64,000 bases of DNA from Flavobacteriales bacterium. Its GTDB lineage: Bacteria > Bacteroidota > Bacteroidia > Flavobacteriales_D > Crocinitomicaceae. Positions 45,081 to 46,461 of this stretch are shown piece after piece (positions within the stretch are counted from its first letter, which is position 1; each line of letters starts with the position of its first letter). The notes under the pieces are model-generated. The model had not been told where the DNA came from. It saw nothing but the letters and a program-made list of their open reading frames with translations, and did not search any database. The stretch spans positions 62,001 through 126,000 of the forward strand of contig CANMTO010000003.1 in assembly GCA_947500755.1 (NCBI GenBank), in the 5' to 3' direction. Both the position numbers and the translations under genes were made by a program.

Positions 45081-45118
45081 AATATTAGTATGCTTCTTGT
45101 ATCTTTGTCTTGTTTAAT

Positions 45119-45200
45119 GCCCACGTGGTGAAATTGGTAGACATGCCATCTTGAGGGGGTGGTGCCAATAGGTGTGCTGGTTCGAATCCAGTCGTGGGCA
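45119..45200 (+). tRNA. tRNA-Leu (anticodon GAG)
   Basis: A type II tRNA fold fits: acceptor GCCCACG at 45119-45125 pairs with CGTGGGC just before the discriminator A at 45200, the T arm is CTGGTTCGAATCCAG, and the anticodon loop is TTGAGGG between CCATC and GGTGG, giving GAG, which reads CUU/CUC. The variable arm is long. The bases after the discriminator are CCC, so CCA is added enzymatically. It is followed by a hairpin terminator. Confidence 0.96.
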
Positions 45201-45206
45201 CCCATC

Positions 45207-45235
45207 AAAAGTCTGTTAATTCAGACTTTTTTTTT
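45207..45235 (+). terminator. Terminator behind tRNA-Leu
   Basis: AAAAGTCTG (45207-45215), a 6-nt loop, CAGACTTTT (45222-45230) and nine T in total after the stem. Classic intrinsic terminator. Confidence 0.85.
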
Positions 45236-45278
45236 GCGGCAACGATGAAAGCTTGCTTTTAAGCGTTAGCGTAAAAAA

Positions 45279-45495
45279 AAAAAGGATGTGCGACAGAGGA
45301 GCTAGACTTTTGATGGTATAGCGAAAAAACCTTTTTGGTTCACGAAGTAATCCGGTAGTAAAAAAAAAGGATGTGCGACATCAGGAGTCAGACGTTTGAT
45401 GGTTTAGCGAAAAAACCTTTTTGGTTCATGGAATAATCCAGTCGTAATAAAAAAGGATGTGCGATAGAGGAGCTAGACTCTTTTCACGAATAATT
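45279..45495 (+). repeat. Tandem ~85-bp repeats behind tRNA-Leu
   Basis: The core AAAAAGGATGTGCGA starts near 45280, 45365 and 45451, giving two full imperfect units of 85-86 bp and part of a third. Each unit contains a copy of the tRNA trailer in inverted form (AGACTTTTGATGG at 45304-45316, with one change in the second unit), so hairpins with 45202-45215 are possible. The end of each unit resembles a degraded T arm (GGTTC...AATCC.GT.GTA). No gene is seen here. Units end 90 bp before the next gene. Confidence 0.8.
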
Positions 45496-45570
45496 CAAGC
45501 GTTTTTTTCACAAAATCGAGGGCGTTTTCAGAGGCTCGTTGTTACACTTTTAGAATCTCCATCCTTTCTT

Positions 45571-45578
45571 TACCTTTG
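45571..45578 (+). promoter_or_regulatory. -7 promoter box TACCTTTG
   Basis: Exact TAnnTTTG match only 4 bp before the ATG at 45583, predicting a leaderless or almost leaderless mRNA. Confidence 0.55.
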
Positions 45579-45582
45579 TTAT

Positions 45583-46461
45583 ATGTTGAAACTGGTCTTA
45601 CTTGTTCTACTTTGTTGTTTTGCGGCAGTTTCTCATGCGCAACGAATCAAATGGGAAAACTTTAATAATCGTGCCAATTGGCGCGCCAACCGCTTAGAAA
45701 TTCAAGCGGGTTTCTGTGCTACTCAATTTACAGGAGATTTAGGTGGGGGGTCCGGCAAAGGCATTGACTATTCGATGAAAGACATGGATAAAGAGGCCTT
45801 AGGGAAAGGTGCTCAAGTGGCCTTCAAGTTTCGATTCAATCGATATCTTGCAACTAAATCAGAGTTCAGTTATTTTCAAGTTAAAGGAAGCGATGCGTTT
45901 TCGGAAAATGCCAAACGCAGGGCTAGAAACCTGAGTTTTGAAAGTTATAATTTCGAATTCAGCCAACGCCTTGAGTTTATATTTCTAGCCCAGGAATTCA
46001 ATGGAACATTCTATAACCTTACATCAAGAGCTCGACATAAAGGGTCAAATTTTCAACTTTATACCTTTGGAGGACTCGGCTTTGCCACCTTCAACCCAAA
46101 GGCAAATTATAACGGGACCCTCATAGAACTTCGTCCCTTAAAAACAGAGGGACAGGCCTCACCTTATGGAAATGCAACGGTTATTATGCCCTTTGGATTC
46201 GGAATGCGTCTTGGCTTAACCAAACAAATTCGTATTGGATTTGAGGCCACTTGTTTTAAAACCTTCACAGATTTCATGGACGACGTGTCTACTTTTTACC
46301 CTGAAGCAGGAGTATTGACCGACCCTGCTGCGCTTTACTTATCAAACCCAAGCCTTTCCCCTGAATTATTCTTACCGGGTAGTCGTAGGGGAGATTTAAA
46401 TCAAAAAGATACGTATTACAGGCTTAGTGCCTCTTTAATTTTCAACTTAAAGAATCGATAA
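45583..46461 (+). CDS. Outer-membrane beta-barrel protein, 292 aa
   Basis: The ATG at 45583 (MLKLVLLVLLCCFAAVSHAQ) begins a clear signal peptide; the longer frame from 45457 runs through the repeat block and is rejected. The mature chain has features of a small barrel: LEIQAGFCATQFTGDLGGGSG, VAFKFRFNRYLATKSEFSYFQVKG, FTFGGLGFATFNPKANY and a final YRLSASLIFNLKNR. It resembles DUF6089-type/OmpA-like N-terminal barrels of Bacteroidota. Its 3' end overlaps the convergent adenosine deaminase gene by 20 bp. Confidence 0.7.
   Translation: MLKLVLLVLLCCFAAVSHAQRIKWENFNNRANWRANRLEIQAGFCATQFTGDLGGGSGKGIDYSMKDMDKEALGKGAQVAFKFRFNRYLATKSEFSYFQVKGSDAFSENAKRRARNLSFESYNFEFSQRLEFIFLAQEFNGTFYNLTSRARHKGSNFQLYTFGGLGFATFNPKANYNGTLIELRPLKTEGQASPYGNATVIMPFGFGMRLGLTKQIRIGFEATCFKTFTDFMDDVSTFYPEAGVLTDPAALYLSNPSLSPELFLPGSRRGDLNQKDTYYRLSASLIFNLKNR

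Follow-up and report, generated by a model that had tools for sequence, protein, structure and literature searches.

Among the places in a genome where large integrative elements land, transfer RNA genes are the best known, and several smaller kinds of repetitive or mobile DNA invite comparison with short repeats found behind these genes. The rtT repeats are tandem units behind E. coli tyrT, REP/BIME palindromes go with RAYT transposases, and fungal mitochondria (e.g. Allomyces atp6) harbor mobile replacement 3' ends with GIY-YIG ORFs. Casposon insertion at tRNA-Pro, as set out in PMC6614799, takes place at the tRNA 3' end and duplicates 14-15 bp of it. Of 83 cleavage sites reported for phage T6 SegB, a tRNA-linked GIY-YIG enzyme, 23 have the motif RAWTSGAAC (PMC13096335).

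Here we analyze a repeat array behind a tRNA-Leu(GAG) gene in the window, a 64,000-nt stretch of the genome of an uncultured aquatic Flavobacteriales bacterium (G000; assembly of 2.56 Mb in 101 contigs). The array probably belongs to a family of mobile elements that are short, palindromic and free of ORFs and occupy tRNA 3' ends in the Flavobacteriales; it would be a member that has decayed and been amplified in tandem. To our knowledge this family has not been described previously; the literature searched contained no published description of such elements, with preprints and most subscription journals lying outside that search. The family combines known kinds in a new way, bringing together tRNA 3'-end repeats, T-loop-directed homing enzymes and palindromic satellites. 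As a single specimen, the array is worn and of modest interest.

The tRNA-Leu(GAG) array and the systems closest to it

tRNA-Leu(GAG) is followed on its 3' side by its trailer, then by a hairpin resembling a terminator, then by a second hairpin, and finally by 2.4 units of 86 bp. The parts are as follows:

45118-45204, + strand: tRNA-Leu(GAG), the host gene (ARAGORN; Rfam gives 45119-45200)
45177-45191, + strand: T-arm CTGGTTCGAATCCAG of tRNA-Leu(GAG)
45202-45214, + strand: trailer A, CCATCAAAAGTCT, of which the array holds inverted copies
45207-45235, + strand: terminator-like hairpin AAAAGTCTG/CAGACTTTT with a T run (an inverted repeat, presumably terminating transcription)
45236-45271, + strand: hairpin B (GCGGCAACGATGAAAGCTTGCTTTTAAGCGTTAGCG), centre of a large imperfect palindrome (inverted repeat 45227-45250 / 45258-45281)
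45275-45353, + strand: unit 1, with an A run, GGATGTGCGACAGAGGAGCT, inverted trailer (45304-45316), linker and right-end core GGTTCACGAAGTAATCC (45337-45353)
45360-45445, + strand: unit 2, with an A run, GGATGTGCGACATCAGGAGT, inverted trailer (45389-45402, 13/14), linker and core GGTTCATGGAATAATCC (45423-45439), then AATCCAGTCGT (45435-45445)
45446-45479, + strand: unit 3, partial, its end falling inside the inverted trailer

Tandem Repeats Finder reports a single array at 45275-45479 (period 86, 2.4 copies, 85% matches), bearing out the tandem repeats that a sequence-only reading had placed behind this gene; the span given in that reading, 45202-45495, takes in the trailer, the terminator and the second hairpin as well as the array. 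In both full units an A run leads into a stretch opening with GGATGTGCGAC, after which come the inverted trailer, the linker and a core resembling a T-arm (GGTTCACGAAGTAATCC or GGTTCATGGAATAATCC). The inverted trailer copies that had been noticed are indeed there, perfect over 13 nt in unit 1 and matching at 13 of 14 positions in unit 2, with the third unit shortened. So too is the T-arm-like end: the 11-nt tRNA segment AATCCAGTCGT (45185-45195) recurs exactly at 45435-45445, and a copy 82% alike lies at 45349-45359. A single large imperfect palindrome extends over the trailer, the terminator, the second hairpin and the first inverted copy, and the predicted fold of the region pairs the trailer with its inverted copy.

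Inspection of the wider genome ties these sequences to this one gene. AAAAAGGATGTGCGA occurs three times in the array, and AARGATGTGCGA is confined to its three array positions in the 2.56-Mb assembly (the reversed control pattern gives 2 matches). The direct and the inverted match to tRNA-Leu(GAG) are each strictly best at this locus, with 0 of 26 other tRNA regions of the genome as good, and the displaced tRNA-end copy starts 230 nt behind the gene. We found no ORF-bearing element and no GIY-YIG ORF behind tRNA-Leu(GAG), and Rfam returned no family at threshold but tRNA, its other matches to the region being weak and sub-threshold. A 334-aa ORF (45457-46461) begins within the third repeat unit; its likelier start is an ATG near 45583 that is also found in G001, G007 and G025, and the array is thus probably intergenic.

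Like the rtT repeats of tyrT, the window units are tandem, lie behind a tRNA gene and hold its 3'-terminal sequence, of which unit 2 retains 11 nt exactly, stopping short of the tRNA end. Unlike rtT, they include an inverted copy of the trailer, their T-loop is rewritten, and related units occur behind many different tRNAs; the Rfam RtT family gives no match to the window region up to E 5. REP/BIME elements are short, ORF-less palindromes, as are the units here, but the latter are mostly tRNA-bound; a RAYT/REP origin was set aside, Y1_Tnp having 0 matches in G000. Y1_Tnp is present in 21 of 61 genus genomes. Allomyces atp6 elements supply a new gene 3' end and displace the old one, an arrangement to be compared with locus L239 below, whereas here the genes are tRNA genes, the hosts are bacteria and derivatives without an ORF occur. 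Casposons, as described in PMC6614799, resemble the window units in that they insert at the 3' end of a tRNA and duplicate a short part of it, but the window units are far too small to encode Cas1. Cas1-type insertion was set aside, with Cas1 in 0 of the 7 genomes searched, the window genome included. SegB and other free-standing GIY-YIG enzymes beside phage tRNA genes are likewise tRNA-linked, and breakage followed by recombination leads there to tandem amplification, a further likeness to the window array (PMC13096335). The window units, in contrast, are chromosomal and carry no ORF, and the text consulted describes for SegB no displaced tRNA part with an inserted hairpin.

Related units behind other tRNA genes

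Conservation in relatives is seen at the same gene. Related units lie behind tRNA-Leu(GAG) in G001 (one fewer than in the window), G007 (one), G025 (two, longer) and G004 (one), and in G007 and G025 the units are followed by a displaced tRNA 3' end with trailer and terminator. Among 32 genomes of the genus, 31 of which were testable (two of these 31, G068 and G082, had been chosen via the core pattern), the inverted trailer at tRNA-Leu(GAG) is present in 17/31 and absent in 14/31; a T-arm mimic accompanies it in 16 of the 17 and occurs in none of the 14. In 13 of the 17 genomes, the inverted copy is fitted better by the genome's own trailer than by that of any other genome, with no foreign trailer fitting equally well, indicating that trailer and inverted copy change together. 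Such joint change fits pairing, as would be expected if the array were, as the sequence-only reading suggested, a source of small RNAs that bind the tRNA precursor, and equally fits travel together in one element.

Signs of insertion come from tRNA-Leu(TAA). The site behind it is empty in G001 and G007, and in G000 and G025 it holds a unit whose last part is a displaced T-arm into which a hairpin is inserted. Past the displaced copy in G000, the flanking sequence aligns with the flank directly after this tRNA in G001 (163/182) and G007 (161/182), and a 150-nt payload is missing in those two genomes and present in G025. G001 is 96% alike to G000 at the Leu(GAG) locus, which indicates that the gain or precise loss at Leu(TAA) is recent; the inverted-trailer score of the G000 unit at Leu(TAA) is only 9. 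Payloads are also similar across different isoacceptors (16 pairs at E<=1e-6), as for Arg-TCG of G000 and Arg-ACG of G025, which share 162 nt at 96%; none of the 16 pairs ties the window's own unit to another tRNA. At tRNA-Arg(TCG) of G000, an apparently newer unit stands between the tRNA and a G004-like unit. The sequence-only reading had proposed relics of repeated integration or a mobile palindromic element, and these ideas agree with the insertion signs, common payloads and tRNA linkage, from which we infer that the units are mobile.

Direct and inverted copies of tRNA ends are common in the genus. For seven genomes of the genus, the 3' end and trailer of every tRNA were compared with the sequence following that tRNA (up to 600 nt) and with the sequences that follow other tRNAs, and regions shorter than 120 nt were dropped as untestable, leaving 170 of 217 gene records. 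An own copy scoring at least 11 lies behind 59 of these 170 tRNAs (35 direct, 35 inverted), against 33/3792 direct and 40/3792 inverted control comparisons at the same score. The own direct or inverted match is strictly best for 10/27 testable tRNAs in the window genome, 11/24 in G015 and 4/21 in G022, where about two per genome are expected by chance. At 13 tRNAs of three genomes (direct score of at least 11), the direct copy matches the gene from a point 13-22 nt short of its end, inside or adjoining the T-loop, and the displaced copies begin 43-311 nt behind the tRNA, some being longer than that of the window. Of 27 testable tRNAs from four genomes of other families, 4 have a direct and 4 an inverted copy, in a sample made up of 30 high-scoring tRNA loci only. 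Hairpins scoring at least 4 were found at 5/32 displaced junctions and 91/850 random points (means 1.94 and 1.00), a weakly positive result in an automatic test.

A right-end core pattern built from units already seen, GGWWCAYGAARTAATCC, extends the family across the order, with 67 matches in 44/399 genomes and 19/70 genera (reversed control, 0); the unit 1 core is itself among them (G000:C3:107337-107353). Thirty of the 67 loci were inspected. In 21 of them, with 8 isoacceptors represented, an intact tRNA on the same strand ends 107-269 nt before the core. Rather than being scattered with no link to tRNA genes, an outcome that would have spoken against the early reading, the exact repeat is found only here and the core, in most of the loci inspected, follows a tRNA. 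By eye, four core loci lacking an intact tRNA (L343, L358, L360, L362) have tRNA 3'-end fragments upstream, two more (L357, L359) are cut by contig ends, and at L344, L345 and L370 the core looks like a chance match in coding sequence. The mini-hairpin AY-GAA-RT shows Y/R covariation over the 67 matches (T-A 48, C-G 12, T-G 6, C-A 1), the pairs in the 30 inspected loci being T-A 28, C-G 6, T-G 2 and C-A 0. The loci in which the core follows a tRNA number 22 (24 rows, two loci having two tRNAs in front); 12 of them have an inverted trailer scoring at least 9, as do 9/488 controls, and in 5 of the 22 (L350, L352, L356, L365, L369) the right flank is the host tRNA's own complete 3' end through CAC. 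Core and linker recur in other genera and families, and window-like tandem units occur at tRNA-Arg(TCT) in two other families.

GIY-YIG genes and the tRNA T-loop

Behind tRNA-Phe of G015, a small GIY-YIG ORF lies in tandem units, each of which closes with a T-loop hairpin and the tRNA-Phe 3' end. With this protein as query, 32 loci were retrieved from diverse bacteria, 18 of them with an intact tRNA ending no more than 223 nt upstream on the same strand; counting any upstream tRNA the number is 20, two being cut by contig ends. A direct copy of the tRNA 3' part (score of at least 16) follows the ORF in 12 of the 18 uncut loci, and in 10 of these 12 a small palindrome, judged by eye, opens the displaced copy. 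A junction at the T-loop with an altered displaced T-loop is seen in the window array and at other tRNAs, bar five Met loci (L185, L191, L193, L197, L209) in which the displaced T-loop is intact and the palindrome lies 5' of the T-arm; these five speak against one rule for all. A viral source for the tRNA-Phe GIY-YIG protein was also considered, and 0 of 8 candidate stretches were confirmed.

Units with and without an ORF are related. At tRNA-Met, an ORF-less unit of G025 and an ORF-bearing unit of G004 have 72/78 nt of their right end in common, and the window genome's tRNA-Met is followed by a similar ORF-less unit. At tRNAs other than Leu(GAG), some units carry small GIY-YIG endonuclease elements or derive from them. 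The seven genomes contain at least 10 short GIY-YIG ORFs, and 5 of those listed follow a tRNA on the same strand at a distance of no more than 373 nt. No short GIY-YIG ORF is present in the window genome, the two matches listed for it being 607 and 459 aa. A scan of 19 short-ORF loci of the genus recorded a tRNA in 4 and a tmRNA in 2, many being not beside tRNAs. At L167 and L178, tmRNA genes, which encode another RNA with a T-arm, lie near short GIY-YIG ORFs. Loci L179-L210 have small GIY-YIG ORFs directly behind tRNA genes in Bacteroidota and some other phyla, and L198, L203 and L210 show the reverse layout, with a displaced 5' half upstream and the intact tRNA downstream. At L239 (tRNA-Arg TCT of G004), the tRNA 3' half has seemingly been replaced by a GIY-YIG unit, giving an apparently chimeric tRNA gene; the original half, which agrees with the form found in G022 and G025, is placed downstream of the ORF with a palindrome in front.

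A possible target for such enzymes is suggested by SegB. In our reading, its motif RAWTSGAAC is the reverse complement of the tRNA T-loop, GTTCSAWTY; the text of PMC13096335 contains neither of the terms T-arm and T-loop. GTTCSAWTY occurs in 123/217 intact tRNA gene records, and 2 of the regions downstream of these genes contain it.

Explanations for the array

In the family to which the array probably belongs, the members are about 100-270 nt long and lie between two copies of a tRNA segment starting in the T-loop (AATCC...). The first copy forms the 3' half of the working tRNA, and the second, downstream, has its T-loop rewritten, often as a mini-hairpin. Moving outward from the tRNA, one meets its trailer and terminator, next the central hairpin, then terminator and trailer again in inverted form, and last the linker and the core GGWWC-AYGAART-AATCC. 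This layout is observed, as are the linkage to tRNAs, the patchy distribution, the empty site at tRNA-Leu(TAA) and the payloads in common, and the route of movement is inferred from them. Insertion and repair may be started by a DNA break in the T-loop of an empty tRNA gene, made by an enzyme of GIY-YIG type resembling phage SegB (PMC13096335). Repair from an occupied locus would then rebuild the tRNA 3' half and leave the old half displaced, and the rewritten T-loop would no longer offer a site, leaving the displaced copy protected. The 86-bp array may have grown by recombination between short direct repeats, and tandem units would be gained and lost in the same way. Several observations count against such an origin. 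There is no ORF-bearing element at tRNA-Leu(GAG), the unit is absent in 14/31 genomes, its exact repeat occurs only here, the inverted trailer accompanies just 12/22 core loci, the hairpin test is weak, the empty site lies at another tRNA, and five Met T-loops are intact. The window genome, moreover, has no short GIY-YIG ORF, Y1 transposase or Cas1, so that no mobiliser is known.

Part of the evidence could be read without any mobile element, with template switching and slippage at the self-complementary T-arm and terminator hairpins duplicating the tRNA 3' end in place, in inverted and direct orientation, and recombination keeping the copies alike. The units do derive from the tRNA 3' end at least in part, as the sequence-only reading had proposed: apart from its linker and its GGATGTGCGAC stretch, much of the window unit is readable as pieces of the tRNA end in direct or inverted orientation. 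In addition, trailer and inverted copy vary together and unit number differs between genomes. Duplication in place nonetheless seems unlikely to us, as payloads are common to different isoacceptors and core and linker are found again in other genera and families. Integrase att sites typically show direct repeats that begin at the T-loop and extend as far as the tRNA 3' end, and the repeats seen here do start in or beside the T-loop, so one might take them for remnants of integrative elements whose tyrosine recombinase used the tRNA 3' end, tandem att sites arising by repeated integration and loss. We regard this as highly improbable: displaced copies lie only 43-311 nt behind the tRNA (230 nt behind tRNA-Leu(GAG) of the window), which leaves no room for an integrase gene, and the ORF-bearing units seen have GIY-YIG instead. 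For the inverted trailer, linker and core, we know of no counterpart among att features.

A role in RNA is possible for the array, and a stronger version would make it a retained device whose inverted trailer and T-arm mimic work within read-through RNA, either terminating transcription in both directions or pairing with the precursor and so tuning tRNA maturation. Complementarity between trailer and inverted copy is kept despite change (13/17), G..A triloop hairpins are over-represented behind tRNAs (24/150 distinct hairpins, against 21/417 shuffled and 9/150 of the reverse-complement type), and the region folds together with tRNA-Leu(GAG) slightly better than shuffles do (z -2.02). Presence in 17 of 31 genomes is patchy, however, a precise empty site exists at another tRNA, the array has decayed in the window, and Rfam finds no family at threshold besides tRNA, so that a kept device of this kind appears quite improbable.

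A broader form of the mobile-element explanation is conceivable, and we hold it only tentatively. An order-wide hairpin family, conserved in structure and variable in sequence, might colonize the stretch from T-loop to 3' end of many tRNAs, with new units stacking next to the tRNA. Its ORF-less units might be satellites of T-loop-cutting GIY-YIG endonucleases, and the hairpin-bearing displaced T-arm might confer immunity on an occupied site. Very small, gene-less hairpin elements appear to use the same tRNA spot as large integrative elements, rebuilding the tRNA each time and stacking behind it. They suggest a connection, open to testing, of intergenic repeats with free-standing GIY-YIG enzymes and with the evolution of tRNA genes, apparent chimeras such as L239 among them. 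The elements may also help to explain assembly breaks near tRNA genes. In G022, contigs C1, C4, C5, C34 and C41 each start no more than about 100 nt from a tRNA gene, as would be the case if assemblies were interrupted by repeats behind tRNAs.
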